Source: a bacterium DOLZORAL124_38_8
Lineage (GTDB): Bacteria; Patescibacteriota; Gracilibacteria; UBA4473
Reading direction: 5' to 3'
Length of the DNA stretch: 64,000 bases
NCBI GenBank assembly: GCA_002747745.1
Contig: PDQG01000005.1
Location: 62,001 to 126,000, forward strand
Below, piece after piece: positions 17,190-56,902 of this stretch. The notes under the pieces are model-generated. The model ran no database searches. It saw only the letters and a list, made by a program, of their open reading frames with translations, and was not told the DNA's origin. Both the position numbers and the translations under genes were made by a program. The first letter of the stretch is position 1; each line of letters begins with the position of its first letter.

Positions 17190-17982
17190 TTAGTAAAACT
17201 TTTCTCCGTCATAGCCATAGGGGATGAGCATAACATCGTCGAGATGTCCATTGAAGTTATGATATCCTAAATATAATCCACCGAGACCAAAATCTTTTGT
17301 TTGTTTTATGGTTTTTCCTCCTATGAACTCGCCGTCTATCCAAAGTCTAGCGGTTGTTCCATCATAGCTTCCAACAATGAACTGCCACTTATTTATTTTT
17401 AATTTATTCTCGCCTTTAAGAGCAAAATTTCCTTTGTTAATATAAAATACAATGTGATTAGCTCTTGCAGAGATGCCTGTGTTATTTTCTATAAATACGG
17501 GATAAGTGTCTTGTGTAGGAACAGCTATCTTTGTCCAAAGAGCAAAAGTTATTTTTTTTAATGGTTTACTGTTTTCAACAGTTCTTCCTATGCTTCCATT
17601 TTTTATAGTCAAAGCATGGTTATTTGAAAAAGGTGCGGTTATGCTTTTGGTTAAATTTTGATTGCTATGTCGTAAATTATTTTTGCTAGAAGACTTGTCG
17701 GTGATTTGTGTTCCAACGTTTCCGTTTGGTAAAAAATCATTTTCAAAATCATACCAAGCGGTAAAAAGTTTATCATTCATGCTGGCATTAGCGGCTAAGG
17801 CTTGGCGTTTAAACTGAGTTGCGGCTGCCTGCGCTTTAGCGAGTCGGGCCTTCTCGATATATGAATTGTACTGAGCGATGCCCATGCCTGATAAAATTCC
17901 AATAATAACAATTACGACGAGTAATTCTATGAGGGTAAAGGCTTTTAAGCTAATGTTTCTTGTGTGTGTGTGTGTGGAACAT
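17190..17982 (-). CDS. Prepilin with LamG-like lectin domain, out of frame with its ATG behind a (CA)8 tract (phase-variable, OFF)
   Basis: The pilin frame contains ISLKAFTLIELLVVIVIIG, a class III prepilin leader, then GMGIAQYNSYIEKARLAKAQ and a C-terminal beta-sandwich. That part (TAWYDFEND, ITFALWTKIA, WQFIVGSYDGTTARLWIDG, LYLGYHNFNGHLDDVML) looks like a LamG/concanavalin-type lectin fold. In the pilin frame no usual start codon precedes the leader; a stop lies at 17994-17996. An ATG at 17982 opens MFHTHTH but reads into TAG at 17950-17952. One more CA unit would join ATG and pilin as a 264-residue protein with leader MFHTHTHTRNISLKA. Other pseudopilins here also have KA|FTLIE, so that processing site is plausible. 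It is divergent from prs. Confidence 0.75.
17961..17976 (-). repeat. (TG)8 / (CA)8 dinucleotide repeat inside prepilin start
   Basis: Eight perfect TG units on the plus strand, read as (CA)8 between the ATG at 17982 and the prepilin cleavage region. Nine units (or six) would put ATG in frame with the pilin; eight do not. Confidence 0.9.
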
Positions 17983-18064
17983 TTTAGTTGATTTTATTTT
18001 CCATTGCATTGTAATTAAAACAGTTTTGATTTACAAAATTTTTAATTTTGCCACACTGAGCGTG

Positions 18065-19000
18065 ATGAAAAAATTTAAAATATTTGCGGGTTCGAGTGCG
18101 GTAGATTTTACCCAAAATATGGCAGCAGCCATTAATGTGCCAGTAGGAAGTACTACGATTAAGAAGTTTGCGTGTGGTGAGTTGTATGTACGATTTGACG
18201 AGTCTTTCCGTGGGCAAGACGTGTTTATTGTGCAAACAGGACGAACGTACCATATGAATGAAGATTTAATGGAATTGTTCTTGTTGATTGATGCGGCGAA
18301 ACAAAGTTTTGCGGATAATATTCATGTGGTAATGCCGTATTTTCCGTACTCACGGCAAGATAAAATTCACGAAGCCCGAGAAGGAATTTCGGCAAAATTG
18401 TTTGCTAATTTGTTAGAACGAGCCGGAGCAAGCCGAGTGATTACTATGCACTTACATTCTGATCAAATTCAAGGGTTCTTTGATTGTCCAGTAGACAATA
18501 TTAATCCGCGACGATTGTTTGTGGAATATTTCAAAAATAAAAACTTGCAAGACGCCGTAGTGGTTTCGCCTGATGCGGGGGGAGCCAAAGAAGCCAAAAA
18601 ATTTGCGGATGCATTAGAAGTGCCATTGGTTATTTTGCATAAAAGCCGACCAAAGCATAACGAATCGGAAGTGAGTCACGTGATTGGGGAAGTTGAGGGG
18701 AAAACGGCGATTATTTTGGACGATATGGTCGATACAGCTGGGTCTGTTTGCGGAGCCAAACAAGCTTTGTTGCAAGCGGGAGCGAATAAAGATGTATATT
18801 TAGCGGCGACTCATCCAGTGTTTTCTGGTCCAGCTATCGAGCGGCTAACAGCGGCTGAATTTGCAGAAATTGTTTGTACCGATTCGTTACCAGTCGCGAC
18901 TCCACCGAAAAACTTTAAAGTGTTGAGTGTGGCACCGTTGCTGGGAGAAGTGGTAAATAATGTAGCGAACCAAAAATCGGTATCGTCTTTGTATATGTAA
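18065..19000 (+). CDS. prs: Ribose-phosphate pyrophosphokinase (PRPP synthetase)
   Basis: Makes PRPP from ribose 5-phosphate and ATP for nucleotide synthesis. It is 311 residues from ATG 18065; the longer open frame from 17960 adds unrelated sequence overlapping the divergent prepilin start. Visible motifs are FAGSSAVDFTQNMA at the start, MPYFPYSRQDKIH (ATP-binding loop), HLHSDQIQGFF, the SPDAGGAKEAKKFA flap and the PRPP-binding loop IILDDMVDTAGSV. It lies 82 nt from the divergent prepilin gene and 3 nt before a FemAB gene, with which it is probably co-transcribed. Confidence 0.95.
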   Translation: MKKFKIFAGSSAVDFTQNMAAAINVPVGSTTIKKFACGELYVRFDESFRGQDVFIVQTGRTYHMNEDLMELFLLIDAAKQSFADNIHVVMPYFPYSRQDKIHEAREGISAKLFANLLERAGASRVITMHLHSDQIQGFFDCPVDNINPRRLFVEYFKNKNLQDAVVVSPDAGGAKEAKKFADALEVPLVILHKSRPKHNESEVSHVIGEVEGKTAIILDDMVDTAGSVCGAKQALLQAGANKDVYLAATHPVFSGPAIERLTAAEFAEIVCTDSLPVATPPKNFKVLSVAPLLGEVVNNVANQKSVSSLYM

Positions 19001-19003
19001 TAT

Positions 19004-20056
19004 ATGAAAAACCTTACAGAAGCATATACGCTGGTGGCTTTGACCGACCAAAATGCGGCTCAATGGGACGAATTTGTTTTGTCTGAGCCAACTGGTTCGG
19101 TGCATCAGTTATCGAGTTGGGTGGAGTTTCAAACCAAAATTCCGGGGCGAGAAGTAGCCAAAGGGTTTGGAGTGCGAGATAAAAAAGGTGATTTTGTGGC
19201 CACGGTTATTTGTGTACAAATGGATACTGGTTTTTTGGGGAAAAAATGGTGGTATTCGGCTAGAGGACCAGTGGTAAATATGCAAAAAAATGCCGCTGCG
19301 GCAGAGTTTTTGTTTCGGATGGTAAAACGAAACTTGACCCAACATGGCGGAATGTTTTGGCGCGTAGATCCGTATTTTTCGGAAACTGATTGGCAACGAA
19401 TCCTTGATTTAGAAACGAAACCCGCGGTGCAAAATTATCAACCAACTGATACCTTGATGTTGGATTTAACAAAATCGGATGAGGAGTTGTTAAAAGAAAT
19501 GAAGCGGAAAGGGCGGTATAATATCAAACAAGCCCAAAAACACGAAATTAAGTACGAGGTGTATGCTGACGGAAAATTTACCAAAGAAGCCTTGCAACAG
19601 TTTTGGGATTTGAACATAGCCACCACCGACCGCGACGGATTTAGTGGACACCAAAAAGAGTATTATCGACATTTTTTGCGTTCGTTGCCCGAAACCGCCG
19701 TGTTGTTTTTAGCCAAAAAAGATGAAACACCCGTGGCAGCCGCTATTTCTACCTTTGCTGGGAGTAAGGCGATTTATTATTTTGGAGCGTCAACGTCGGA
19801 TAATGCGTTGCGAAAACTAATGGCCCCGTACGGATTACAATGGCGCATGATTCAGTATGCCAAAGAAAAAGGTTGTAAGACTTATGATTTTTTAGGCATC
19901 GCTCCCGAAGGAGAAGAAAATCATCCGTATGCCGGAATTTCGGAATTTAAGTGGAAGTTTGGTGGGTACCGAGATACGTTTGTCGCTGGAAAAGAAATTC
20001 CGTTAAATGGGTTTTGGTATTGGGTGTACCGAGTGATGAAGAAGTTGAGAAAATAA
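19004..20056 (+). CDS. FemAB/FemX-type peptidoglycan bridge aminoacyltransferase
   Basis: A 350-residue protein with the double-GNAT FemAB layout. The first half has GSVHQLSSWVEFQTKIP and KKWWYSARGPVV. The helical-arm entry is MKRKGRYNIKQAQKHEI. The second half has TTDRDGFSGHQKEYYRHF and the late signature YDFLGIAPEGE followed by YAGISEFKWKFGG. These enzymes add amino acids from aminoacyl-tRNA to the lipid-linked peptidoglycan stem peptide. With murA (38104) and an LPXTG protein it supports a peptidoglycan wall with cross-bridges. It follows prs by 3 nt. Confidence 0.9.
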   Translation: MKNLTEAYTLVALTDQNAAQWDEFVLSEPTGSVHQLSSWVEFQTKIPGREVAKGFGVRDKKGDFVATVICVQMDTGFLGKKWWYSARGPVVNMQKNAAAAEFLFRMVKRNLTQHGGMFWRVDPYFSETDWQRILDLETKPAVQNYQPTDTLMLDLTKSDEELLKEMKRKGRYNIKQAQKHEIKYEVYADGKFTKEALQQFWDLNIATTDRDGFSGHQKEYYRHFLRSLPETAVLFLAKKDETPVAAAISTFAGSKAIYYFGASTSDNALRKLMAPYGLQWRMIQYAKEKGCKTYDFLGIAPEGEENHPYAGISEFKWKFGGYRDTFVAGKEIPLNGFWYWVYRVMKKLRK

Positions 20057-20105
20057 GGTTTTTGTTGTGGTTTCTTGCTTTTGATTTTGAAAAGGAAATG
20101 GAAGA

Positions 20106-20124
20106 CTCCAAATCAAGTTTGGAG
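20106..20124. repeat. Palindrome with TCAAG loop
   Basis: CTCCAAA-TCAAG-TTTGGAG, 50 bases after the femX stop. It may serve as a weak terminator. The TCAAG loop is shared with the palindrome at 49101-49119. The 250-base gap 20057-20306 otherwise holds only the palindrome at 20171 and a TTGACA at 20248. Confidence 0.5.
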
Positions 20125-20170
20125 ATTTACTATGAAAATATATTCCCTTTTCTAAAAACATTGTTGGTCA

Positions 20171-20187
20171 TTCTGGCTTGTCCAGAA
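20171..20187. repeat. Dispersed palindrome copy 1 (TTCTGG-CTTGT-CCAGAA)
   Basis: A 6-bp stem with a 5-nt loop. The reverse complement of this 17-base sequence occurs exactly at 49185-49201, both in gene-free DNA. The pair suggests a small REP-like repeat family. Confidence 0.6.
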
Positions 20188-20306
20188 CCTAGTTCTTAAC
20201 GACCTTTGTATGACAATCGTTTGAGCGATGGTGTTTTTCGGTATTTATTGACAAAACCAAAATTCTAAACAAAATTGTGATGAATTTTATTTACTACAAT
20301 TTAGTT

Positions 20307-20423
20307 ATGGGAAAAAAGAAAACCGCACGTTGGAAAAAGAATTTAGGACTAAAAATTGTTTGTTTAATTGGTTTGATTGCCTTGTTGGGGGTGTCATTTT
20401 TACCATTTTTAGGAATTTTATAA
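20307..20423 (+). CDS. Small membrane protein, 38 residues
   Basis: A short open frame: a basic N-terminus (MGKKKTARWKKNLG) followed by one hydrophobic helix (IVCLIGLIALLGVSFLPFLG). A TACAAT at 20296-20301 lies 5 nt before the ATG, so a leaderless mRNA is plausible. It lies 13 nt upstream of gltX and may be co-transcribed with it. It resembles the many uncharacterised single-helix small proteins of bacteria. No function is recognised and it could still be chance, but positive-inside topology and position favour a real gene. Confidence 0.5.
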   Translation: MGKKKTARWKKNLGLKIVCLIGLIALLGVSFLPFLGIL

Positions 20424-20436
20424 TTTAGTGCTTACT

Positions 20437-29255: not shown

Positions 29256-29738
29256 TTAAAACTTATACTTTCGAGACGAAATGGTAGTACGAATAAATTG
29301 TTGTACCGATGGATCTTTTTTTGATTGAACTTTCAAAAATATTTGTACTTTAGGTTGGGTATTTTCTTTGTTTGTTATAACAAATTTGGAAGTTTTATTA
29401 TCTGTTATTATTTTAAACCTTTTTGATATAAGTCGTTCATTATTCATTGTAAATGAATTGCTGTCAGTATTTATCGAAAAATTATAAGGTTTATCATTTT
29501 CACATTTAAGATTTACAAAGTTAGATTTTCCACTTGTAATCTCACAATTTCGGGCACGGTCGGTAAGCCGAGCCAAGGCAAAATTGACTTCCTTTTGCAT
29601 TTGACGAGCAATTTCGATACGCATTTTTGTTTGCACAAATTGAGCGTACACGCCCAAAGCACTGGTAAGAATCACCGCTCCAATAGTGATAGAAATCATC
29701 AATTCGATGAGCGTAAACGCCTTTTTTTGGTGTTTCAT
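29256..29738 (-). CDS. Minor pseudopilin (GspJ/PilW-like)
   Basis: A 160-residue protein. KHQKKAFTLIELMISITIG is a class III leader with cleavage after Ala and Glu at +5. The helix is followed by IARQMQKEVNFALARLTDRARN, which matches the GspJ/PilW pattern, then a beta-rich domain with two Cys (CEITSGK, LKCEND). Its ATG overlaps the stop of the preceding gene by one base (29738), so the genes are translationally coupled. It would help start or cap the pilus. Confidence 0.82.
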   Translation of the reverse strand: MKHQKKAFTLIELMISITIGAVILTSALGVYAQFVQTKMRIEIARQMQKEVNFALARLTDRARNCEITSGKSNFVNLKCENDKPYNFSINTDSNSFTMNNERLISKRFKIITDNKTSKFVITNKENTQPKVQIFLKVQSKKDPSVQQFIRTTISSRKYKF

Positions 29739-30190
29739 TATTTCTTCCAGTTAGTAAGTATGCTCTGCATTTCTACAATTTTGGTGTTGTTTCGTGAGAC
29801 CGTGCAGGTGATGGTGGCTTCGACTGGTATTTGGATCATTTTGATATTTTGTCCACCTGAATTTGTACCAACAAAGTCAATATTTTTGTTTTTTGTTGAA
29901 ATTTCTCGTGATATTTTAAAAGTTCCAAATTTTTCTTCGTCTTTGGTTAGGGTTTCTAACTCATTTGTCCAATTATCAAAATTTCGCCAGTTGATGTCGC
30001 GTTGATTACGGGCGTTTTCTAAACACTCTTGTGCAAGGTAGGTGGCGGTTAGTCGGGTTTGGTTTTGTGCCACGGTGGTAATAAACGATCCAATAAGTTT
30101 GAATCCAGCCAGTACCGCCATACTTAAAATAACCATCGCAATCATCACTTCGATGATAGAAAAGGCGGGTTTTTTAGTGGTTATTTTCAT
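29738..30190 (-). CDS. Minor pseudopilin (GspI/PilV-like)
   Basis: A 150-residue protein with KPAFSIIEVMIAMVILSMAV as the prepilin motif, Glu at +5. The continuation LTATYLAQECLENARNQRD is the GspI/PilV signature, in which the segment after the helix carries A-x-E-x-x-x-E-x-A-R. The globular end is small. It lies between the GspH-like and GspJ-like genes, the same order as in type II secretion and type IV pilus operons. Confidence 0.82.
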   Translation of the reverse strand: MKITTKKPAFSIIEVMIAMVILSMAVLAGFKLIGSFITTVAQNQTRLTATYLAQECLENARNQRDINWRNFDNWTNELETLTKDEEKFGTFKISREISTKNKNIDFVGTNSGGQNIKMIQIPVEATITCTVSRNNTKIVEMQSILTNWKK

Positions 30191-30210
30191 TTTCTGGGAT
30201 TTAATGATGT

Positions 30211-30732
30211 TTAATTTTTTAGTGTTACGGGTTGAGCGGTTACAAGGCCTGAGGTTTTATTGATATTAATGGATGATTTGAATGAATTTGAAGAGAAAGG
30301 AATGGTTTGAATCAAACTCTCCTTTATAGGACATGATATTCCCCTACAAGGAATAGTTTTTATATCACCAAATGGTGGTTGATATAACACGCAAAAATTT
30401 TTGTCTAATTTGGTGTTTCCAGCCAGTGTTATTGGATGAGAGCAAGGGATTGGTATTGAACAGTTTTTGGCTCTTGCGTGCTTTTCCGTTATACAAATTT
30501 TATTGGAATTATTTTTTCCAGAAACGATAATGGCTTTATTGATTGAGCGACTGCTCGAAAATCCTTCCGCGAGAGCGGCTTCAATTTGTTCGCGCGCGTT
30601 TATGATGCGTTGTTTTTGAATTGTTTGGTTCCAGTTTATCATGCCCACGGTGAACAAAATTCCCATAATAACAATGGTTACCAGAATTTCTATCAGCGTA
30701 AAAGCGTTTTGTTTAGGCTCCAGTAAAGGCAT
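30211..30732 (-). CDS. Minor pseudopilin (GspH/FimT-like)
   Basis: A 173-residue protein from ATG 30732, which overlaps the end of the PilC gene by 20 nt. The prepilin motif is KQNAFTLIEILVTIVIMG. The next segment, INAREQIEAALAEGFSSSRSINKAI, is typical of GspH/FimT. Cysteines in the C-terminal half (KICITE, KNCSIPIPC, PCRGISC) could form disulfides in the exported domain. It is the first pseudopilin after the PilC gene. Confidence 0.82.
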   Translation of the reverse strand: MPLLEPKQNAFTLIEILVTIVIMGILFTVGMINWNQTIQKQRIINAREQIEAALAEGFSSSRSINKAIIVSGKNNSNKICITEKHARAKNCSIPIPCSHPITLAGNTKLDKNFCVLYQPPFGDIKTIPCRGISCPIKESLIQTIPFSSNSFKSSININKTSGLVTAQPVTLKN

Positions 30733-31855
30733 CTTGTAGGGCAAAAATAGGTTTTAAAATAGCGAGTCCCATAAATATTACGGCTACCGATACAATCACC
30801 AAAATTACTGGCGAAAGCATTTTTGATAGGTTTTTGATGTCGGCATCAAATTGCAGTTGGTATTGGGTACCAGTTTTTTGCAAAATTTCGGTTATGGCTC
30901 CAGATTTTTCTCCAATTTCAATGACTTCTCCAATAATAGGGTCAATTTCTGGTGATTCTTTAAATCCTTCAGACAGTTGGTCTCCGGCCACAATTCGTTG
31001 TTCGACACTGTATATTTCTTCGGAAATTACTTTGTTGTCTACAATTTGTCGTAGTACTTGCATGGCTTTAGAAACTGGAATTCCAGCTTCGAGTAAGGTA
31101 GCAAAGTTGGTGGCAATTTGAATGGTAGAAAAATTGCGGACAAATTTACTTACAATTGGGGTGTCGAGTAATATTTTATGCCATTGGATTTTCCCTTCGG
31201 GCGAATCTTTCCAGTTTTTGAAAAACAAAGCGGCCGCCACAAGAATGGTTAGCAAAATCCACCACGAACTTTGTACAAATTCTGAAGTCGCAATTAAGGC
31301 TCGGGTTTCCCACGGTAGTTCGGCTCCGAGTGAGGCGAACATTTCTTTGAATTTTGGTACCACAAAAATCATCATGGCAAATCCAGACAAAATAATCACG
31401 CCAAAGACGGTGATTGGGTACACCATGGCTGATTTAATTTGCATTGAGAGTTTTAAGTTTTTGTCCATTTGAACGGCCAAGTAAGACAAAACTTCTTCAA
31501 GTTTTCCCGTAATTTCTGCCGAGTAAATCATTTTAATTTCTGATTCGTTGAAAAAATCAGGATATTTTGACATGGCTGACGATAATGGCATTCCACGTTC
31601 GTTAATATCGTAATGAATGGTTGCCAACACCCGTTGGAGCCGTTCTGAACGGGCACGTTCGGATAACATTTTAATGGCTTGGCTTACGCGAATTCCCGAA
31701 CCCACTAACAATTTCAGTGAGTTAAAAAACAAACTTTTTTCTTTGGCAGGGAGGGGCGTATTATCGATTAAAAAATCGTTTAGTTTTTCATGCCAAGGAA
31801 TATCACGGCGGTCAGTTACGCCGTAAATAACGGTTGAAGCAGTTTTATTGTTCAT
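30713..31855 (-). CDS. pilC: Type IV pilus inner-membrane platform protein PilC/GspF
   Basis: A 380-residue protein from ATG 31855. Two GspF repeats are visible. The first has LLVGSGIRVSQAIKML and MPLSSAMSKYPDFFNESEIKMI, followed by AEITGKLEEVL and a helix pair. The second has LLEAGIPVSKAMQVL, LSEGFKESPEIDPII and VIEIGEKSGAITEIL. Membrane helices are at about 165-185, 215-235 and the C-terminus (VILVIVSVAVIFMGLAIL). It is the core platform that the assembly ATPase drives. It overlaps the upstream PilO-like gene by 11 nt. The ATPase and prepilin peptidase genes are not in this window. Confidence 0.95.
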   Translation of the reverse strand: MNNKTASTVIYGVTDRRDIPWHEKLNDFLIDNTPLPAKEKSLFFNSLKLLVGSGIRVSQAIKMLSERARSERLQRVLATIHYDINERGMPLSSAMSKYPDFFNESEIKMIYSAEITGKLEEVLSYLAVQMDKNLKLSMQIKSAMVYPITVFGVIILSGFAMMIFVVPKFKEMFASLGAELPWETRALIATSEFVQSSWWILLTILVAAALFFKNWKDSPEGKIQWHKILLDTPIVSKFVRNFSTIQIATNFATLLEAGIPVSKAMQVLRQIVDNKVISEEIYSVEQRIVAGDQLSEGFKESPEIDPIIGEVIEIGEKSGAITEILQKTGTQYQLQFDADIKNLSKMLSPVILVIVSVAVIFMGLAILKPIFALQDAFTGA

Positions 31856-32366
31856 TTGTTTGCGGTTGAGATTCAAAATAGTACGAGTACAAATTTACGC
31901 CGAAGGTTGTTTGGTCGTCTTCGTTTTTTTCGATGGCAAAATTTTCAACGCCCATTAGTAGTGGGTTTGATTCGACACTTTTGAGAAACAACAAAATTTG
32001 TGATCGAAACCCTGTAACCGAAAACTGTGTTGAAAGTTTTTGGAGTCCATTAGCCTCGGTTGTTTTGCTAAACTGAATTGCGTCGCTCACCGTTACGCCC
32101 GCTTTTTGGCTTAATTTTTTAATATCGGTAATGAGTTCGCCTTGATTAAACTCCGTAGGAATGAAATGTTTGATGGAATCTTTAGACGCTTGCAGGGCTT
32201 CAAATTCTTTTTTTACGGCTTTGAATTTAGTCGTCTTTTGTTGTTTGGTTTGTTGTAACGTTTGTATTTCTTTTTGAAGTGTGTCTACGGCTCGTTTTTT
32301 AGGTAATCCCACAAACCCAAATAATAGTACCGCACTTAAGATGAGAATAATATTTAGATTTTTCAT
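31845..32366 (-). CDS. PilO-like alignment protein
   Basis: A 173-residue protein with one N-terminal membrane helix (NLNIILILSAVLLFGFVG). A coiled coil follows (DTLQKEIQTLQQTKQQ...EFEALQAS), then a compact ferredoxin-like fold with FRSQILLFLKSVESNPLLMGVENF, the typical PilO C-terminal pattern. PilO with PilN bridges the cytoplasmic motor and the extracytoplasmic pilus parts. It lies 1 nt after another PilO/PilN-like gene and overlaps pilC. Confidence 0.8.
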   Translation of the reverse strand: MKNLNIILILSAVLLFGFVGLPKKRAVDTLQKEIQTLQQTKQQKTTKFKAVKKEFEALQASKDSIKHFIPTEFNQGELITDIKKLSQKAGVTVSDAIQFSKTTEANGLQKLSTQFSVTGFRSQILLFLKSVESNPLLMGVENFAIEKNEDDQTTFGVNLYSYYFESQPQTNEQ

Positions 32367-32367
32367 T

Positions 32368-32859
32368 TTATTTGAGAGTAAAAGTTAGGGTAAACATAAG
32401 GTTGTTATTGTCGTCTTTTTGGGTTTGAAGTGAATGGATGAAAGGCGTTTCAACCTTTGATGATTCTTGAAGCCGTTTGAGGAGCAACTGAATACTTTCG
32501 ACACTGGCAGCTTTGCCAGAAACCTCTACTTGGTATGGTTTGGTGTTGGTACTACTAAATTGTTGGAACGAAAGAGACGGCGTTTCGAAATTAGTAATAC
32601 TCGACATAATTTTTGACCAAGCGATTCGTGATTTTGTTTTGTCGACTAATGCCACCATGTGTTGTGATGTTTGGTTTTGAGAACTTCCGTTTAATTGGTC
32701 ATCAATGTTTTTGATTGATTTTTCCAAGAGTTCTTTTTGTGGTTTCAGTTGCGACTGTTGGTACTGGAAATATCCAGTAACACCCGCGGATACAAGTAAC
32801 AAAACAATGGCAATAATACTGAGTTTTGATTTTTTTGGGGTTGGTTGGACGGTATTCAT
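32368..32859 (-). CDS. PilN/PilO-like membrane protein
   Basis: A 163-residue protein with a short cytoplasmic N-terminus, one helix (LSIIAIVLLLVSAGVTGYF) and a coiled-coil neck (QQSQLKPQKELLEKSIKNID). The C-terminal fold contains SVESIQLLLKRLQESSKVE, parallel to the next gene. The two adjacent genes are probably a heterodimer like PilN-PilO. The sequence alone does not decide which is which. Confidence 0.7.
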   Translation of the reverse strand: MNTVQPTPKKSKLSIIAIVLLLVSAGVTGYFQYQQSQLKPQKELLEKSIKNIDDQLNGSSQNQTSQHMVALVDKTKSRIAWSKIMSSITNFETPSLSFQQFSSTNTKPYQVEVSGKAASVESIQLLLKRLQESSKVETPFIHSLQTQKDDNNNLMFTLTFTLK

Positions 32860-32875
32860 GATAAAAAATTAAGAT

Positions 32876-33880
32876 TTAAGAGTTTGTTTCGCGGCTATTT
32901 CCATACACTCGAGAACTAACCGTGGTTTGAAGATGTAGGTGTGGAGCGTTATCAACTTCGAAAGAATATTTTTCAGGGTTTTTAATAGCGGTTGATAATT
33001 GAATGGTCACTTTCGGGTGTTGTTGGGCTGAATCATCTCGGAAAGCTAAGTAAGGATCTTTCTTTGGGGTGATTTTAAAATTTAAGGATTGTATGTTTAC
33101 GGAATCTAATGAGATGGCTTGCCAATCGTGTGCCATAACCAAGCACTTTGATTTGGTATCAATGTCTAAATCTAAAATTGGATAATTTATTCCATTATTA
33201 CTTATCTTACATTGATTATTCTTCCATTGTGGGGAGGTGCTCCAAATATCGGCTTCGCCGTCGTGGTTGGTGTCGGCCCCAATTTCGACTTTGGCTTGAA
33301 TGTGGGCACAGTTTTCGTTGTCTGGTTCGCAAGTGTCGCTTGATTTAGTTCGTTTAAAAGCAAATCTTCTGGTGCGGGTATTATTGATTAAATACAATTC
33401 TTCGAGTGAATTTTTATGAAAGGCTACGGTGCAAGGGTCTGAGGTTCCGTCATTTTTTACGCCTCCAAGTTGTCGGTCTGGCACGTTGTCATCGTTCGTG
33501 TCCCAATAAAAAACTTCTGGGTAATTAAGTTTTGCTCGGTTAGTAGAGTTATTTTCACAAGCATTGTTTTCAGTATAAGTTGAACTACAAGGATTTGCAT
33601 TTATTAATTTAGGCAATTGCAATCGATCAAATTTGGGGCATTGAGTATTACTTGGTCCAACTTCAATAAAATATCGATCATAATCGACCACATTGTTTTG
33701 AGTGACGGAGATAAGTTTGTCTAATAAAAACCGTGATTCGCGTTGGAATTCTTTGGCAATACGGAGTCGTTTTTCTCCTAATTGAATAGACTGACTAAAT
33801 TGGAATATAAACCCAACAAAGATGGTTAAAAGCGTCATGGCGGTTAACACTTCTACGAGGGTAAATCCTTTTTGTTTCAT
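32876..33880 (-). CDS. Large minor pseudopilin (GspJ/PilW-like), first gene of the operon
   Basis: A 334-residue protein. KQKGFTLVEVLTAMTLLTIF is a class III leader with Gly at -1 and Glu at +5. RLRIAKEFQRESRFLLDKLISV is the following helix. The large globular part has several cysteines (QCPKF, NPCSST, NACEN, DPCTV, TCEPDNENC, NQCKIS) and a DTNHDGEADIW calcium-loop-like motif. It is much longer than usual minor pseudopilins, so it may be a tip subunit. It is the first gene of the pseudopilin operon and follows a terminator. Confidence 0.82.
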   Translation of the reverse strand: MKQKGFTLVEVLTAMTLLTIFVGFIFQFSQSIQLGEKRLRIAKEFQRESRFLLDKLISVTQNNVVDYDRYFIEVGPSNTQCPKFDRLQLPKLINANPCSSTYTENNACENNSTNRAKLNYPEVFYWDTNDDNVPDRQLGGVKNDGTSDPCTVAFHKNSLEELYLINNTRTRRFAFKRTKSSDTCEPDNENCAHIQAKVEIGADTNHDGEADIWSTSPQWKNNQCKISNNGINYPILDLDIDTKSKCLVMAHDWQAISLDSVNIQSLNFKITPKKDPYLAFRDDSAQQHPKVTIQLSTAIKNPEKYSFEVDNAPHLHLQTTVSSRVYGNSRETNS

Positions 33881-43012: not shown

Positions 43013-43108
43013 AATTTTAATTTTGGTTTTCGCGTTAAAAAATTTAGGTGTCTAGTTAAAATTTGAGAAAAGACTTGATTAAACTGGTACGTAATTAGAC
43101 TTATTTTG

Positions 43109-43704
43109 ATGCAAGTTCGCAAGTTCGCAAGTTCGCAAGTTCGCAAGTTCGCAAGTTCGCAAGTTCGCAAGTAGCTCGGCGAGGGTTTACGTTGATTGAA
43201 TTATTGGTAGTAATTGTAATAATCGGAATCCTTGCTGGAATGGGGATTGCTCAATATAAGCAGACGGTTTATAAGGCTCAGGAGGCTAAAGCGTTGGCTG
43301 AGATGGCACAGATAAAAAAGGCTATTCGACTATTAGAAGTTGAAACAGGGAAGACAATCGGAGGGTTTTCGATTGGTACTTGTGTGCAAAATCCTGAATT
43401 CAAAATGGTTGGTTGTGCAGGAGGTTTGTTATGTAAAGAAGAAGTAGCAAAACCTACAAATTCTGGTCAAGAATTTGATTTTGGAAAGAAATGGGCGGGA
43501 CCATATATAGATAAAAGTGTATTAATTGACCCATGGGGAACACCATATGAGTTTGATTGGGATTTTGTTTGTTACAATAACCCTAAGTATGCACAAAAGG
43601 AATGTAATGGAAAATCTGTTATTTCGGCTATTATGTCGTATGGACCAGATAGGTCTGGTAGTTATAAAGATAATATTATAATTCCGTTTTGTGTTCCCAA
43701 GTAG
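43109..43704 (+). CDS. GspG-like prepilin, out of frame with its ATG behind an octamer repeat (phase-variable, OFF)
   Basis: The ATG at 43109 reads MQVRKFASSQV... through seven GCAAGTTC units and stops at TAG 43172-43174. The pilin frame (another frame) reads QVARRG|FTLIELLVVIVIIGIL and continues with AGMGIAQYKQTVYKAQEAKA. The C-terminal domain has GPYIDKSVLIDPWGTPYEFD and MSYGPDRSG, the pattern of the major pseudopilin GspG. No ATG, GTG or TTG precedes the leader in that frame after the stop at 43096. Removing one unit (six copies) joins the two parts, giving 195 residues with a 23-residue leader. TAGACTTATTTTGATG upstream is shared with the prepilin gene at 56154. Confidence 0.8.
43111..43171 (+). 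repeat. Octanucleotide repeat (GCAAGTTC)7 plus partial copy
   Basis: Seven perfect GCAAGTTC units (43111-43166) and the partial GCAAG, beginning at the G of the ATG. Eight is not a multiple of three, so unit number sets the reading frame: six or nine copies are in frame with the pilin, seven and eight are not. Confidence 0.95.
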
Positions 43705-43822: not shown

Positions 43823-45205
43823 ATGCAAAAAATTTACGACAACATTAAATCTATTGCTGGACCAATCCTTGTGGTTGATGGAGTAAAAGATGCCAAATAC
43901 GAAGAGCTAGTAGAAGTACAACTGGCTGACGGAAGTACCAAAATGGGGAAAGTTTTGGAATCTCATAATGGACGAGCGATGGTTCAAATGTTTGAGTCTA
44001 CGCAAGGACTTTCTACCGAAAATTTGAAAGCAAAATTCACCGGAAAAGTGGCCACTTTGGGGGTTTCTCCAGATATGCTCGGACGAGTGTTCAATGGAGC
44101 GGGAAAAGCGCTTGATGATGGACCAGCTGTGTTAGCGGAAAAACAAATTGATATTTCAGGAATGGCGATTAATCCATATTCTCGAACCTTCCCATCAGAC
44201 TTTATCCAAACTGGTATTTCGACTATTGATGTGATGAATACTTTGGTGCGAGGACAAAAATTACCAGTGTTTTCAGGGTCTGGGTTGCCACACGCTGAAT
44301 TAGCGACACAAATTGCCCGACAAGCGAAAGTGAATGATGGATCTGAGTTTGCGGTAGTGTTTGGAGCCATGGGGGTAACGTTTGAAGAAGCGATGTTCTT
44401 TAAAAACGAATTTGAACGAACTGGAGCGATTGAAAACTCAACGTTGTTCTTGAATACGGCGGCCGATCCAGTGGTAGAACGAATTTCTGTGCCACGAATG
44501 GCGTTGTCTTTTGCTGAATACTTGGCGTTTGAAAAAGACATGCACGTGTTGGTGATTTTGACCGACATGACCAACTACGCAGAAGCGTTGCGAGAAGTGT
44601 CTGCGGCCCGAAAAGAAGTGCCAGGACGACGAGGATATCCAGGATACCTCTATACTGATCTTTCAACTATTTATGAACGAGCGGGACGAGTAAAAGGTTC
44701 AAACGGATCTTTGACGCAAGTGCCAATCTTATCAATGCCAGAAGATGATATTACTCATCCAGTGCCAGATTTGACTGGATATATTACCGAAGGACAATTC
44801 GTGGTTGATCGAGGATTGTACCAAAAGAAAGCGATGCCACCAGTAGACGTGTTGAAATCATTGTCTCGATTGGCCGGAGCTGGAATGGGAGAAGGAAAAA
44901 CTCGAGAAGATCACTCAAAACTAAAAGATCAATTGTTTGCGTGTTATGCCCGAGGGAAAGACGTACGAGAATTGGCCGTTGTGTTGGGAGAAAGTTCTTT
45001 GTCTGACGTAGATAAATTGTACTTGGCGTTTGCGGATGCTTTTGAAAAAGAATTTGTAGGACAAGGCTTTGATGTTGACCGAACAATTTTAGAATCATTA
45101 GAACTTGGATGGGAATTATTGCGACCATTCCCAATTACTGAATTGAAACGGTTGAACCAAAAAACAATTGATAAATACCACCCAGATTTTAAAGACAAAA
45201 ACTAA
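43823..45205 (+). CDS. V/A-type ATP synthase subunit B, without neighbouring subunit genes
   Basis: A 460-residue protein clearly of the V/A-type ATPase B (NtpB) family. Visible signatures are [20 protein letters not shown] (degenerate P-loop, as expected for the non-catalytic subunit), [35 protein letters not shown] and [20 protein letters not shown]. The C-terminal [11 protein letters not shown] is also complete. It is a regulatory nucleotide-binding subunit of the ring that couples ATP to ion movement. No A, C, D, E, I or K subunit lies nearby: upstream is a prepilin gene and downstream a terminator. The rest must be elsewhere or missing. Confidence 0.95.
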
Positions 45206-45697: not shown

Positions 45698-46771
45698 TTA
45701 TACTCCCATAAAAATATTTACTACGACGAAAGCAATAAACATCAAAGTAAGAATGATTCCTTGCCATTTGTGAGTCCGAAACTTTGTAATAGCGAAAAGT
45801 AGTAAAATAGCGAATAAGTATCCAAATAAAAATAGGATTGAAGTCGTCATTTTTTCGGTTTCTGCTCCGGAAATATTCCCATTTAGAAAGGCATATGGAA
45901 TTGAAACGAGTGCAAAACTAATACAAATATCCAGGGTGTTACTTCCGAGGGCATTTCCAATGGCTTGGTCGATGTTATTTTCTTTGGCGAGGGCAATGTT
46001 TGAAAATAATTCGGGAATAGAACTTCCGCCCGCGAGTACGGTTAGGGCGATGAGGGTGCTGGAAACACCAATCATTTCGGCAAAAGTAACCGATGATTCT
46101 ACAAATGTATAAGTTAATACGCCGATGGCAATGAGCGTAATGATAAATCCAACGGGAATTTTTTTGATAAGTCCAAACTTGTCATCAGGATTTGGAATTA
46201 TAGAAAGAATCTTCTCAAGCCAATGTTTGTTCTCTCTCTCTCTCTCTCTCTCTCTAGCTGAAAGTTCTAAGTGTAAATCAAAATTTGATTTTTTATGGGT
46301 GGCAATAAGAATTGTTATATAACAAATATGGTAGGCTGATAGGATAACGAGTTCCCAGCCAGTGAGAGCTTGTCCTGATGATAGGAATGCCCATAGAAGA
46401 ATTACAGATCCACCATAAATAGCTGAAGTTCGTAGAAGGCCTCGAGGATCTAACTTGACGGATTTTTTGGTGAATAGTAATGGAATCCCAATAACTACGG
46501 TGATTTGAAAAATAGCAGAACCAATAATAGTGGCTAATCCAAGGGCTGGGTTATCGTGTAAAATGTATAATCCGATAAAACTAATAGCAATTTCTGGGGC
46601 AGATGTTCCGAGGGCTTGAATGGTTTCACCAGCAACAAAATCACTTAGATGCCATTGTTTTTTAAAGTGTTCAGTCCAGTTCATAAAAGGTCCATCGGAG
46701 ACAATTCCGATGGCTTGTACCAGAATTATGATGGCAATACAGAGTCCGATTCCTATTAAAATTTCAATCAT
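45698..46771 (-). CDS. CaCA-family Na+/Ca2+ exchanger-like protein containing a (TC)12 tract (phase-variable, ON)
   Basis: A 357-residue protein with the two inverted alpha repeats of the Ca2+/cation antiporter family: ETIQALGTSAPEIAISFIGL in the first half and AGGSSIPELFSNIALAKE plus IGNALGSNTLDICISFAL in the second. About ten membrane helices are visible. Between the halves is the soluble loop HLELSARERERERENKHW, where RERERERE is encoded by an AG repeat. The gene is in frame as sequenced. Changing the tract by one unit brings TAA or TGA within about 15 codons and would leave only the first half. It would export cations such as Ca2+ or exchange Na+. Confidence 0.92.
   Translation of the reverse strand: MIEILIGIGLCIAIIILVQAIGIVSDGPFMNWTEHFKKQWHLSDFVAGETIQALGTSAPEIAISFIGLYILHDNPALGLATIIGSAIFQITVVIGIPLLFTKKSVKLDPRGLLRTSAIYGGSVILLWAFLSSGQALTGWELVILSAYHICYITILIATHKKSNFDLHLELSARERERERENKHWLEKILSIIPNPDDKFGLIKKIPVGFIITLIAIGVLTYTFVESSVTFAEMIGVSSTLIALTVLAGGSSIPELFSNIALAKENNIDQAIGNALGSNTLDICISFALVSIPYAFLNGNISGAETEKMTTSILFLFGYLFAILLLFAITKFRTHKWQGIILTLMFIAFVVVNIFMGV
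46231..46255 (-). repeat. (TC)12 / (GA)12 dinucleotide repeat in exchanger gene
   Basis: Twelve perfect TC units and a final T, within the loop between the two exchanger halves. In the current frame it encodes RERERERE. The two other frames end soon after at TAA or TGA. Confidence 0.93.
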
Positions 46772-52062: not shown

Positions 52063-52095
52063 TTTTATAGTTGAAGTTAGAAATTTGGTTTAATT

Positions 52096-52971: not shown

Positions 52972-52995
52972 TGCGATTAGGTGTTAGTGAATAGT

Positions 52996-53667
52996 TTATG
53001 ATTTTTTTTGGAGTCGTTCGAGCACTAAGTTTAAAATTTCGGCACCGATTTCTTCTCGTCGTCTGAGTTCTCCGCCTTTATCAACGGATAATTTTTGCCA
53101 ACGGAAATCGGTTTCGCATCGGTCTAGGGCTACGGCTCGTACTTTGGCTAGATATTCATTATCCGATTCGTGCAAATCGGTGGTGCGGCCTTTGGCGGCG
53201 TGTATTTGTTCACGGGCTTCTGGCGAAGCATCTAAAAACAAGACTAAACTTTCACGAGGAAATCCGTTTAGTTCGTATTCAAGCGTTTCGACAAAATGAA
53301 TTAGATCTTCGGCTTCGACTTTTGATTGTGCTCGTGCGGGGGTATAGATAAGGTTTGAGGTTACGCCGCGGTCAAAAATAACCACATCATTTTCAATCAA
53401 CAATTTTTGAATTTCTTCGGTTTGAGCCACGCGGTCAGAGGCGTAAAGAGCGGCAATGGCTTTCGGGTCAAGGTTGTGAAAGTTTCCACACTCACCTCGT
53501 AAATAAGCCGCAATGCGGGCTCCAGCAGGAGTTTGTTCGTAGCCTGGAAATCGTTTCCAACCGACTTTAATGTTGTGTTTGGCTAAGTTTTTCAGCAAAA
53601 TTTCGGTTTGGGTTGATTTTCCGCAGGCATCTAATCCTTCTAGTACAATTATGGGAGCTTTTTTCAT
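52996..53667 (-). CDS. tmk: Thymidylate kinase
   Basis: A 223-residue dTMP kinase from ATG 53667. The P-loop is VLEGLDACGKSTQTEIL, with Ala-Cys where most have GA-G. The DRx motif is VIFDRGVTSNLIYTPARAQ, which contacts the thymine and phosphates. ALYASDRVAQ is the dTMP-binding helix and LFLDASPEAR leads into the lid. An upstream GTG (53676) is less likely. It follows ordinary nucleotide metabolism; folD is just downstream. Confidence 0.93.
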   Translation of the reverse strand: MKKAPIIVLEGLDACGKSTQTEILLKNLAKHNIKVGWKRFPGYEQTPAGARIAAYLRGECGNFHNLDPKAIAALYASDRVAQTEEIQKLLIENDVVIFDRGVTSNLIYTPARAQSKVEAEDLIHFVETLEYELNGFPRESLVLFLDASPEAREQIHAAKGRTTDLHESDNEYLAKVRAVALDRCETDFRWQKLSVDKGGELRRREEIGAEILNLVLERLQKKS

Positions 53668-53829
53668 TTTGTTCACACTAAATTCGACGCTATAGTATTT
53701 GTTTCGTTTAAAAAAAACAAACAGAAATCGACTGGGTTTTTGAACGCTTGTTTAAAAAACATACTTTTATTTGACTTAAATTCAAAAAAGTTTTAAAAAT
53801 ATTTTGAAATATTCTTATCTTACAATTTG

Positions 53830-54771
53830 ATGAATAAACAAATACAATTATTAGGGGCTGTTTTATTGCTTGGTTCAGCCGTGGTTTTTGCGACACAGGC
53901 GGTTCATTACGGAAACAGAACGAGAAAAAATATCACTCGACGTTTTTCTTATCATATGCGAACGGGAAATAATTCGGCTTATTTGCGAGACAAAACCGTC
54001 GAAAAAAAAGGGTATATGCGCCCACGAGTAACGGCAAATAAAGGTGTTACAAGTGAAAAGAATAATCCGATTAGAAAGTTTGTGGGTGGAAGACGATGGG
54101 TTAATGGGCGTTCGTCTTTTTCAAGTTTGAAGAAAATTTCGGTGGAGAAAAAAGGATACATGCGCCCACGAGTAACGGTTGATCGTGCGGAAAAATCGCC
54201 TCAAAGTACGCCACTTCGAACCATTACAAACCGAACTTTGCCAACCTCGAAAAAACTCAATTCTCCGTATGTGGCAACGAGAAAACACGTGATGTTACAT
54301 ACAGAATTTAAACCTTCAGAACTTAAAAATGTTCAATCAGAATCATTTGCGTTAGATTTGCCAACCGAAATGTTGCAAACCAGCAAATCAAAAACCGAAT
54401 TGACGGCACGAACAGCTGATGGAGTAAAATTAAATATAGAAATACTTTCACCAGAAAAAGAAACGGGGTTTGACGGAACGGCTCGAGCAATTGCGGAAAC
54501 TCAGTTGAAAAAACGGCTTGATGTGTCGACTATCAACCAAACACGAAAAGTGTCTGAACAATTTGGGAAAAATCACATTAAGTTTTTGCAAACTCCAGCT
54601 ACCAAATATTTTGAAAAAGTAAGTACTGGAAACCAAAAATCTCTGGCACAACGGGTGCAAGAAAATCCGAATGGAGGTTTCGTGTATATGGAGGTTTCAG
54701 CGTTGGAAAAACAATTGAACAAGGTATTAAATTTTGCCAACCAAATATTTAATTCATTTAATCTGAATTAG
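53830..54771 (+). CDS. Exported basic protein with a duplicated GYMRPRV motif
   Basis: A 313-residue protein that I do not recognise. The ATG at 53830 opens a signal peptide (MNKQIQLLGAVLLLGSAVVFA). The mature part is strongly basic. The 12-residue motif VEKKGYMRPRVT occurs twice, near residues 56 and 104, with the DNA partly conserved too. The second half is alpha/beta-like, with LDLPTEMLQTSKSKTEL and FVYMEVSALEKQLNK. No membrane anchor beyond the leader and no cysteine are seen. A terminator follows at 54806. Confidence 0.72.
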   Translation: MNKQIQLLGAVLLLGSAVVFATQAVHYGNRTRKNITRRFSYHMRTGNNSAYLRDKTVEKKGYMRPRVTANKGVTSEKNNPIRKFVGGRRWVNGRSSFSSLKKISVEKKGYMRPRVTVDRAEKSPQSTPLRTITNRTLPTSKKLNSPYVATRKHVMLHTEFKPSELKNVQSESFALDLPTEMLQTSKSKTELTARTADGVKLNIEILSPEKETGFDGTARAIAETQLKKRLDVSTINQTRKVSEQFGKNHIKFLQTPATKYFEKVSTGNQKSLAQRVQENPNGGFVYMEVSALEKQLNKVLNFANQIFNSFNLN

Positions 54772-54805
54772 TGAAAATTTTCTAACTTTAGGGGAACATT
54801 CAATT

Positions 54806-54837
54806 AGATTCTGTTGTGAACGACAGAATCTTTTTTG
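54806..54837 (+). terminator. Intrinsic terminator
   Basis: AGATTCTGT (54806-54814) pairs with ACAGAATCT (54823-54831), then T-rich. It ends the gene at 53830. Confidence 0.8.
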
Positions 54838-54870
54838 TAAAAAAAAAGTATTTTGCTACCATAGTTTGTG

Positions 54871-56061
54871 ATGACTGATTTATTAAAAAAGTTTCGAAAA
54901 AAAATTGTTGATTTAGGCTTTTCTCACAACAAGGAGTCAAAAGTTGAAGCCATTGATTTGTCAGATTTGCCAGCCGTACAAACAGAAGAAGTGCCGAAGG
55001 TTGAGTTTACCATTTCTTCGATGACGATTGCGAAAGTGTTGTTTGTGGGGGCCTTGTTTTTAGTAGGAAAAGAGTTATTGTTAGAGTTAAAAAGCATCAT
55101 TATTATGACGGCGTTATCAAGTTTGTTGGCGCTCGGATTGTCACCGTTTTTGGATAGATTGGAACGGTTTAAAATTCCGCGTCCACTGGCAATATTGATT
55201 TTATATATAGTTTTTTTAGGGGTGTTGGCGGTTGTGTTTATTCAGGTATTACCAATGTTGTCAGAACAATTATTGGGTATTGCCAAAGAACTAAAACACT
55301 TAGTTTTCTCTCCAAAATTTGAAATTCCTTTTATCGGAAAACTTGGGCTCAATATTAACGCGACTGATTTACAAGGATTAGTAGCCAATAATCTGACAGA
55401 AATTTCTCAAAATTTACAGTCAGTGGCTGGATCTACGTTTGATATTGTGGGAAGTATCTTCCAAGGGGTATTTAACTTTGTGTATACATTGATTTTATTG
55501 TTCTTTATGTTACTAGAACGAGAAAAAATTGGACGTTTTGTTTTGAGTCATTTGCCTTCTGATACGAGAAAATATGTGTACCAAAAAACCATTGACGTGC
55601 AGCATAAAATGGCCCATTGGTTTAAAGGTCAAATTATGGTGATGATTGTGGTCGGTGTTGGAATTTATATTGGAATGAAGATATTTTCGCTTATTTTTGG
55701 CGTAAAATATGCTGCGACCATTGCTATTGTGGCAGGAATTATGGAATTGTTCCCATATATTGGAGCGGCTTTGTCTACCGTTTTGGCTGGAGTGGTAGCG
55801 GCAAATGAATCTGCGACCGCCTTCTTATTTGTGTTAGGATGGATGGGATTAGTTCAATTCTTAGAAGGAAATATTTTAGTTCCATTGGTGATGGAGAAAG
55901 CGGTCGGATTATCATCGGTGGTGGTGATTTTGTCATTGTCTATTGCGGGTACTTTGGGGTATGCCGTAGGTGGAATTGCGGTCTCAATTCTTGGTATGAT
56001 TTTTGCCATTCCGTTGGCGGCCATTGGGTCAATCTTTATTTCGGGTGAGCATAAAGATTAA
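54871..56061 (+). CDS. AI-2E family (PerM-like) membrane transporter
   Basis: A 396-residue protein from ATG 54871, with a cytoplasmic N-terminal segment of about 45 residues and then eight or so membrane helices. Family marks are LSPFLDRLERFKIPRPLAIL, the loop of LSEQLLGIAKELKHLV, WFKGQIMVMIVVGVGIYIG, IMELFPYIGAALSTVLAGVV and VQFLEGNILVPLVMEKAVGL. The AI-2E transporter family includes exporters of autoinducer-2 and other small molecules and a Na+/H+ antiporter. The cargo here is unknown. It is flanked by a terminator and the pentamer-repeat prepilin gene. Confidence 0.9.
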   Translation: MTDLLKKFRKKIVDLGFSHNKESKVEAIDLSDLPAVQTEEVPKVEFTISSMTIAKVLFVGALFLVGKELLLELKSIIIMTALSSLLALGLSPFLDRLERFKIPRPLAILILYIVFLGVLAVVFIQVLPMLSEQLLGIAKELKHLVFSPKFEIPFIGKLGLNINATDLQGLVANNLTEISQNLQSVAGSTFDIVGSIFQGVFNFVYTLILLFFMLLEREKIGRFVLSHLPSDTRKYVYQKTIDVQHKMAHWFKGQIMVMIVVGVGIYIGMKIFSLIFGVKYAATIAIVAGIMELFPYIGAALSTVLAGVVAANESATAFLFVLGWMGLVQFLEGNILVPLVMEKAVGLSSVVVILSLSIAGTLGYAVGGIAVSILGMIFAIPLAAIGSIFISGEHKD

Positions 56062-56153
56062 TAAAGATAATGAATAGTTTTTTACTATAAGAATGTCTTG
56101 AAATCTAGTGAAAAAATTAGACAAAGAAAGTGGCAGAAAATAGACTTAATTTG

Positions 56154-56902
56154 ATGAGTTTTATTGAACCGAACCGAACCGAACCGAACCGAACCGAACC
56201 GAACCGAACCGAACCGCGTTAGCGTTTAGGCAATTTGCTCGCGGATTAGTTAAAGGGTTTACTCTCATAGAGTTATTGGTGGTAATTGTGATAATTGGGA
56301 TTTTGTCTGGAATGGGAATTGCTCAGTATCGTTCGTATATGAATAAAGCGAAAGATGCTAAAATAACTTCTGATTTAGCTCAGATTTCTAAAATTTTGCA
56401 GGCGGATAGAGTGAGTCGAAATAAATCGGATTATTCACATCTTATAAAAAATGAAGATGGGCAACTACGAAATGATGCGGTTGAAGTGGTGCGAATTATA
56501 AAAGAGGCTGGTTTTAAATTACCAAGTCCTGATGAGGCCTGTTATTTTATTATGATCCCGTGGGAATTACATGAGAAATCATTTCCTTACGGAAAAAAAA
56601 CGGATTTTGCGGTGGTTTCATTGCGGTCAGGGATGTTAAACACTAATTTGGAGGCTCCATTTGGAGAAATGATATTGGCGAATGGAACGTCTGAATCAGT
56701 GAATGTGTTATTAAACCCAGCACTGAATCCTCGAAGAGGGTCAGGATACACTTGGGGGAAATCACTTCGTTCGTGGTATAAGGATTATTATAAGGGGGCT
56801 TGTAAGGATAGCCCATCTTATGAATATTGGAATGGAATAGCTCTAAATGGACAACCGTATATAAATGCTTTTAGTTTTATTCCGATTGATCCGAGTTTGT
56901 AA
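56154..56902 (+). CDS. Prepilin, out of frame with its ATG behind a pentamer repeat (phase-variable, OFF)
   Basis: The ATG at 56154 opens MSFIEPNRTEPNRT... through ten GAACC units and meets TAG at 56220-56222. In another frame the prepilin reads ALAFRQFARGLVKG|FTLIE, then LLVVIVIIGILSGMGIAQYRS and a globular domain with CYFIMIPWELHEKSF. That frame has TGA at 56165-56167 and no start codon. Nine or twelve units would join the two, giving 247 residues with a 33-residue leader ending KG. The upstream TAGACTTAATTTGATG is nearly identical to that before the prepilin at 43109, which supports this ATG. The C-terminal domain has no family that I recognise. Confidence 0.8.
56166..56215 (+). repeat. 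Pentanucleotide repeat (GAACC)10
   Basis: Ten perfect GAACC units, 12 nt after the ATG at 56154. Five is not a multiple of three. Nine or twelve copies put the ATG in frame with the prepilin; ten does not. Confidence 0.95.

Follow-up and report, generated by a model that had tools for sequence, protein, structure and literature searches.

The window analysed here is the whole stretch of 64,000 nucleotides (nt), bases 62001-126000 of contig C6, from the bacterium DOLZORAL124_38_8, whose genome is a draft of 909,522 bases in 10 contigs that is 98.94% complete with 0.13% contamination. The window carries three prepilin genes, each with a short tandem repeat directly behind an ATG start codon. 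An earlier note on this DNA had read the three genes as a phase-variable system, in which slipped-strand events would turn pili or adhesins that share one assembly machine ON or OFF. The features of the three genes are listed below, with an arrow marking the cleavage site of the prepilin.

17190..17945, minus strand: prepilin KA↓FTLIELLVVIVIIGILSGMGIAQY with a Laminin_G_3 (concanavalin-like lectin) head (L015)
17961..17976, minus strand: (CA)8, OFF phase, between the L015 ATG and the pilin
17980..17982, minus strand: ATG start codon of L015, the LamG pilin gene; not in frame with the pilin as sequenced
17991..17996, minus strand: -10-like TAAAAT, 8 nt before the L015 ATG; predicted leaderless start
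43096..43101, plus strand: -10-like TAGACT, 7 nt before the L003 ATG; predicted leaderless start
43109..43111, plus strand: ATG start codon of L003, the T2SSG-like pilin gene; not in frame with the pilin as sequenced
43111..43172, plus strand: (GCAAGTTC)7.75, OFF phase (L003); TAG at 43172-43174
43177..43704, plus strand: prepilin RRG↓FTLIELL.. with a T2SSG-like head (L003)
56141..56146, plus strand: -10-like TAGACT, 7 nt before the L006 ATG, within a 55-nt block common to L007 (53/55)
56154..56156, plus strand: ATG start codon of L006, the third pilin gene; not in frame with the pilin as sequenced
56166..56216, plus strand: (GAACC)10.2, OFF phase (L006); TAG at 56220-56222; cassette also at L007 and L009
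56252..56902, plus strand: prepilin KG↓FTLIELL.. (L006), head related to that of L009

The repeats described in the earlier note are present at all three genes, with two of the tract ends off by one base. In L015, L003 and L006, respectively, the ATG begins 6, 2 and 12 nt before the tract. As had been noted, it is out of the pilin frame. It opens reading frames of 10, 21 and 22 codons, which end in a TAG located 8, -1 and 3 nt past the tract end. The pilin frames behind the tracts encode correct leaders (..LKA↓F, ..ARRG↓F and ..LVKG↓F). Between the preceding stop codon and the cleavage site, these three frames contain no ATG, GTG or TTG; an ATT is found in L015. The heads differ, with Laminin_G_3 in L015 (E 2e-13), T2SSG in L003 (E 9e-5, over the cut-off) and no Pfam head in L006, which matches L009 at 56% over the pilin. 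The description of the genes as unlinked holds only in part: these three share one contig and lie 13-38 kb apart; two further repeat genes are on the same contig, and the remaining five are scattered over five other contigs.

The number of genes had been understated, since ten prepilin genes in the genome carry such a repeat. A motif search identified 21 prepilin genes, all of them above the Pfam N_methyl (PF07963) cut-off and with the hallmarks of the class: a G/A↓F cleavage site, a T/S-L-I/V-E motif and a hydrophobic helix. When proteins were scanned, most were likewise over the PF07963 cut-off, with L020 (20.7 bits) and L021 (21.0) just below 21.2; the L015 and L009 proteins submitted to the Pfam scan were truncated behind the cleavage site, and L001 is interrupted by a contig end. 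In 10 of the 21, a tandem repeat stands directly 3' of the ATG, with six types of unit (CA, GA, GAACC, CAGAA, GTCTC and GCAAGTTC), none a multiple of three. Eight are out of frame as sequenced (OFF): L003 (the 8-nt unit GCAAGTTC, 7.75 copies), L006, L007 and L009 (GAACC; 10.2, 8.2 and 7.2 copies), L010 and L015 (CA; 10 and 8 copies), L011 (CAGAA, 9.4 copies) and L014 (GTCTC, 3.8 + 7.8 copies with one changed base between). The other two, L020 and L021 (GA; 10 and 13 copies), are in frame (ON). The tracts are perfect in nine genes, L014 being the exception. All ten units, at 2, 5 or 8 nt, leave a remainder of 2 modulo three, and no 1-, 4- or 7-nt unit is among them.

The remaining 11 prepilins have no tract longer than 10 nt. 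They comprise the pilus-cluster and other minor pilins; L001 and L002; L012, with a short, irregular TC-rich leader; L017, with only (AC)5, in frame; and L019. L001 and L002 (C9:34021-34760) are near-identical non-switch pilin starts in tandem, the second ended by the contig edge, and are likely the major pilins. L019 (C4:128516 on) is a LamG pilin paralogue that lacks a start-codon repeat and has one in-frame stop inside the lectin domain. Tracts are concentrated in the subfamily with a G(M/I)GI(A/S)Q helix (10 of 12, versus none of the nine other prepilins; Fisher 2e-4, for a grouping made after the tracts were known).

In every one of the ten repeat genes, each of the two non-pilin frames meets a stop no more than 24 nt past the tract, whereas among 335 open reading frames (ORFs) of at least 150 codons, both wrong frames stop within 24 nt past codon 8 in only 40 (12%). 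The chance of such closure is about 3e-6 if the six cassette types are taken as independent. No phase of the repeat units contains a stop codon, and the pilin frames behind the tracts are open for 157-252 codons in all ten genes. No ATG or GTG is available to start the pilin frame in any of the eight OFF genes, and in L003, L006, L010 and L014 none of the start codons looked for lies in frame. In the five paralogue pairs compared, dN is lower than dS (nonsynonymous and synonymous divergence; 0.40 versus 1.38 for L006/L009 and 0.48 versus 1.39 for L015/L020), with dS high or near saturation, so the comparison is indicative only. Judged from sequence, the start-codon repeats of these ten prepilin genes are probably slipped-strand ON/OFF translation switches, with a probability of roughly 85%. 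The earlier proposal of a switched pilin repertoire sharing one machine is supported by the ten genes, the six repeat types and the closed wrong frames, and it further fits the intact OFF frames, the varying unit numbers, the presence of one prepilin peptidase gene and a lectin-pilin with (CA)19 in a sister genus, described below.

Start signals across the genome suggest why such a repeat would be hard to avoid. Among 248 ORFs of at least 200 codons, called mechanically with the first ATG taken as the start, Shine-Dalgarno-like words precede only 3.6%, and TANNNT boxes are commonest at distances of 7, 8 and 9 nt upstream of the ATG (29, 25 and 21, versus about 10 at most other distances). The organism therefore probably translates mostly leaderless mRNAs. 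None of the ten switch-gene ATGs is preceded by a Shine-Dalgarno word, and TANNNT lies 7-8 nt before the ATG in seven. If the mRNAs are leaderless as predicted, translation probably has no start other than the ATG that precedes the repeat; with the message beginning at that ATG, the repeat would be part of every message and hard to by-pass. Leaderless mRNAs would thus make a start-codon repeat an unusually tight switch.

Repeats of this kind are scarce in the rest of the genome. The background sample consisted of the window and 20 stretches of 20 kb, 464 kb in all or 51% of the genome. Eleven tracts in it exceeded the threshold, and eight of them are prepilin starts; the other three are (TC)12.5 in a Na/Ca exchanger gene, the in-frame (TCT)6.33 at 61736-61754 and (GACA)4.25. 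Contigs C4 and C1 alone (340 kb) are a fairer sample, because three of the stretches had been picked for their pilins, and there two of three tracts are prepilin starts. No homopolymer of 10 or more occurs within the 464-kb sample. In genome-wide pattern searches, two of three (GA)8 tracts and both (CA)8 tracts are pilin starts. Of the 353 class genomes, only this one has (GAACC)4, and all three of its arrays are pilin starts. The 62- and 51-nt tracts of the window exceed the longest run of a 2-, 5- or 8-nt unit (23 nt) in ten simulated Markov-1 genomes. The (CA)8 tract of L015, at 16 nt, is not beyond the simulated chance length by itself, and was counted in the set because of its position and of a paralogue with (CA)10.

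The exchanger tract is (GA)12.5 on the minus strand (46231-46255), and lies in frame between the two halves of the Na/Ca exchanger gene (PF01699; 45698-46771). A one-unit change would shift the frame, so this repeat may be one more switch, in this case of an ion exchanger. It is followed by ACAAACA, the same letters that follow the GA tracts of L020 and L021.

The alternative that survives best, while improbable, is that the repeats are neutral: a tolerant leader would have let repeats grow by chance, and the OFF genes would be decaying pseudogenes. The stop that breaks the repeat-free LamG relative L019 is consistent with decay, and the TC-rich irregular leader of L012 may be a decayed tract. 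However, all eight OFF genes keep intact frames of 157-251 codons, notable repeats are scarce elsewhere in the genome, and neutral growth does not account for wrong frames that are closed in ten of ten genes, against 12% of ORFs.

A second alternative, slightly less credible than neutrality, is that the repeats tune expression, with ribosome slippage on the repeat or initiation at TTG or ATT giving low or graded expression of every gene. Candidate starts of this type are present: an in-frame TTG at the border of the L007 tract, and in-frame ATT codons behind the tract in L009, L011 and L015. In L003, L006, L010 and L014, however, not one of the start codons tested for occurs in frame. The absence of Shine-Dalgarno words at the ten ATGs and the predicted leaderless starts also argue against tuning, as do the three unit lengths and unrelated sequences of the repeats, which are unlike one slippery site. 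Least probable of all is an assembly or sequencing error that left wrong unit counts in the consensus of alleles that are really in frame: the genome is a draft of 10 contigs, but miscounted units would not put repeats at pilin starts, two ON genes against eight OFF come close to the one-in-three share that freely varying phases would give, a LamG pilin of the sister genus, from a separate assembly, has a tract as well, and tracts of 16-62 nt are shorter than usual sequencing reads.

Comparison with relatives suggests that the set of ON/OFF switches is specific to this lineage. Nineteen genomes of the family were covered, none of them in the same genus, with 72 prepilin matches listed; the 52 family prepilins that were examined come from 17 of these genomes and were selected with a motif filter, so that the two sets do not fully coincide. 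In total, 54 prepilins were examined in relatives: 20 in G001, which belongs to the sister genus, 32 in 16 other family genomes, and 2 in G033, from another family. A tract of real length is found in 10 of 21 prepilins of this genome versus one of the 54 in relatives (Fisher 4e-6). The single case, L056 of G001, is a LamG pilin with (CA)19 in frame that is 34% identical to L020 over its length; two G001 pilins also have 2.6 copies of an A-rich 8-mer.

A class-wide search covered 38 stretches around (CA)9 or (GA)9 tracts of other members, among the matches listed, and otherwise GAACC only. It yielded at least one further prepilin start with a tract, L254 (799-1110) in genome G343, from a different family of the class. 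Here, (GA)9 follows an ATG and precedes a prepilin-like gene whose N_methyl match is over the cut-off; this gene is out of frame with the ATG and runs past the contig end. The earlier note had pointed to related genomes as a place to look for other prepilin genes of this design; L056 and L254 are such genes, and the 16 other family genomes supplied none. Similarly, among 183 prepilin matches from the best 80 of 193 relatives together with the family loci, some of which overlap the 54 examined prepilins, none has a tract behind the start codon. A tract lies within 120 nt in two of the 183, in both before the likely start (GTG in L108, ATG in L134). With none of 32 in the 16 family genomes and one of 20 in G001, the switch set appears, on sequence comparison, to be lineage-specific.

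Protein collections give a less complete picture. Among 219 listed proteins with a recognisable prepilin site, two were flagged as repeat-encoded, both from this genome (P0011 and P0245); P0006, also from this genome, carries NRTEP repeats and was listed by the filter merely as having a long leader. This count of repeat pilins is too low, because OFF genes would be miscalled. Gene callers falsely placed the start inside the helix in P0004, P0005, P0035 and P0244, and switch pilins are under-annotated given such false starts. The protein collection appears to include this genome twice, with its V-type ATPase B subunit on two contigs and the protein of L009 on a contig of 80,847 bases. The number of contigs per called protein was considered as evidence of switching and was not used, as it has no clear pattern: the proteins of L003, L006 and L007, and also of the repeat-free L002, are called on one contig, and those of L012, L015, L019 and L021 on two; L009 and L020 each have two member sequences.

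Several observations weigh against the proposal that the repeats are ON/OFF switches. The unit numbers come from the assembled sequence of one genome. In the one comparison of a tract between two records of the protein collection, there is no difference: the called leader of the L021 protein (P0245) takes in the GA tract, and the protein reads the same on both contigs, although both records may derive from the same reads. L012 and L019 belong to the subfamily of the switch genes yet lack a tract, and start-codon repeats are missing from the 32 prepilins of the 16 other family genomes and present in only one of the 20 in G001. L010, L014 and L021 have no -10-like box at the leaderless distance. 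The TTG just before the L007 tract and the ATT codons of L009, L011 and L015 make low OFF-phase expression possible. Leaders of these prepilins end in RRG, VKG, LKA, VLA and similar, and are lengthened by the repeat; type IV prepilins with long repeat-encoded leaders are unusual. Finally, MutS and MutL are encoded and may slow slippage of the 2-nt tracts. Mismatch repair sees 5- and 8-nt units poorly.

Additional evidence that the repeats change in length comes from comparisons among the paralogues. Unit numbers differ within one cassette, with 7.2, 8.2 and 10.2 copies of GAACC, 10 and 13 of GA, and 8 and 10 of CA. L006 and L007, on different contigs, are identical at 53 of 55 positions before the tract, 34 of 35 behind it and 79 of 81 in the helix, whereas agreement falls to the level of unrelated sequence in the heads (220/597) and in the DNA lying beyond the upstream block (35/90). 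L020 and L021 have the leader behind the tract in common (25/26) and different heads, while L015 and L020 have the LamG head in common and different leaders, CA and GA. The leader-helix block and the head have thus been exchanged between genes, with the repeat number varying among copies of the block.

The machinery that would serve the switch pilins includes a type IV pilus cluster in the window, which, as the earlier note had stated, is free of start-codon repeats.

29256..33880, minus strand: type IV pilus cluster with four prepilins (29.2-33.9 kb), none with a start-codon tract
30713-31876, minus strand: PilC
31845-32366, minus strand: PilO
32368-32859, minus strand: PilN

Genome-wide, there are one prepilin peptidase gene and three T2SSE ATPases. 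The heads of the switch genes are LamG, T2SSG-like or weakly ComP-like, with others having no assignment. The predicted model of P0003 has a helix (4-54) followed by a mixed head (mean pLDDT 70.8), with no PDB match at E <= 0.001 in a fold search; the model of P0006 is poor.

The proposed mechanism is as follows. Polymerase would gain or lose repeat units by slippage, and one of the three phases would join the ATG to the pilin frame, while the other two would lead to a stop within 24 nt behind the repeat. The OFF state would be near-complete in most genes, with internal restart at the pilin unlikely because of the leaderless start signals and the near-absence of Shine-Dalgarno sites. Prepilins in the ON phase would pass through the single prepilin peptidase for cleavage and then go to one PilC-containing machine for assembly, and each cell would display its own combination of lectin-like LamG, T2SSG-like, weakly ComP-like and unassigned heads. 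Promoter, repeat leader and helix also move between genes as one block, which is nearly identical in L006 and L007 in front of unrelated heads. The heads may bind host or neighbour surfaces, with host binding suggested by the type IV pili of cultivated relatives in the Candidate Phyla Radiation (CPR). A broader proposal, put forward tentatively and with slightly less confidence than an even bet, is that at least 10 switchable heads on one machine, together with reshuffled cassettes, form a combinatorial, Opa-like host-recognition repertoire on CPR type IV pili that allows clonal bet-hedging.

Repeats of a similar type were observed in other genes of the class. Dinucleotide repeats of 9-22 units lie inside reverse-transcriptase (RT) genes of other class genomes (L220-L228, L241, L246 and L252; also L240, L243 and L248, and L244 by inspection), an assignment based on RVT_1 in L221 and L228 and on PADLOC RT models. 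Two sites recur among these tracts, one following GLLGAIER..FLK and the other preceding GMPIGNLTSQ; the IGNLTSQ motif of the tract-bearing RTs is presumably that of diversity-generating retroelements. RT-like genes account for 15 of the 38 (CA)9/(GA)9 loci. Of the 12 with a clear upstream part, two (L221 and L228) are in phase and 10 are out. From their sequences, these look like phase-variable reverse transcriptases in several families of the class, and they may be more novel than the pilin switches. L237 and L238 of G179 are paralogous and apparently secreted; what looks like the signal peptide contains (TC)13 in L237, where the frame is kept, and (TC)21 in L238, where it is not. Pilin matches of some class members contain in-frame TGA codons, as in code-25 lineages; this genome has long frames without TGA, such as UvrA (990 codons) and MutS (879). 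The nearest named matches of the V-type ATPase B subunit encoded in the window (43823-45205) are from Candidatus Peregrinibacteria (84%) and Candidatus Gracilibacteria (83%), and the organism is accordingly taken to be a CPR member of the Gracilibacteria/Peregrinibacteria group.

Start-codon repeats are a classic means of phase variation among host-adapted pathogens, and the prepilin switches proposed here have counterparts there. In Haemophilus influenzae, the lic genes have 4-nt repeats behind multiple start codons. The frame-shifting repeat directly behind an ATG is a feature in common, as are starts in more than one frame, seen here in L007 (ATG and TTG); lic products, however, are glycan enzymes and not pilins. 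Neisseria pilE varies by recombination with silent pilS copies, in contrast to the prepilin genes here, each of which has its own ATG. A single expression locus of the pilE/pilS type is not what was found, as there are ten separate ATGs, seven with a -10-like box 7-8 nt before them; the block exchange between L006 and L007 indicates recombination, but not one expression site. Neisseria pilC switches through a G(n) tract in the gene (PMC11475388, in part). Like the prepilins here, as proposed, it is a varying type IV pilus component, but pilC is a tip adhesin with a single tract type.

The closest parallel is with the Neisseria opa genes, for which the portions of PMC3745409 and PMC11475388 consulted describe about 11 scattered opacity adhesin genes with CTCTT repeats in the leader-peptide sequence. 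Both sets consist of scattered paralogues for surface proteins, each with its own repeat just past the start, whose copy number sets the frame. Independent switching yields combinations in opa, as those portions describe; in the prepilin genes, switching is inferred. The differences are that the genes here encode type IV prepilins and not outer-membrane proteins, use six repeat units rather than one, have predicted leaderless starts, and belong to a likely CPR organism that is not known as a pathogen. Pfam scans of the ten switch pilins gave no Opa homology, with pilin, LamG or no heads. The switch pilins would work like opa but are not members of that family.

Among CPR bacteria, the nearest case in the open-access literature is that of Gracilibacteria BD1-5, with a hypervariable repeat gene for a predicted extracellular protein and 15 listed GspG proteins (PMC6851277, in part). 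Its repeats differ in being 9 nt long, in frame and inside the protein, with mainly synonymous variation and no ON/OFF or pilin link in the portion consulted. Among the matches listed, that literature contained no start-codon-repeat phase variation for CPR bacteria or for a type IV prepilin family. For Saccharibacteria, a CPR bacterium with 12 putative pilins has been described, in which host binding is aided by one major pilin and by one minor pilin that carries an additional C-terminal domain (PMC12206443, in part); two extrusion systems are present there, and "phase vari" occurs 0 times in the text available. That cultivated member binds its host by type IV pili (PMC12206443, in part), and the repeats described here may bear on how CPR cells find and change hosts; if the prepilin switches operate as proposed, cells of one population could show different attachment fibres. 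The new elements, as read from sequence, would then be the host group (CPR) and the protein class (type IV prepilins) in which a known switch design is found.

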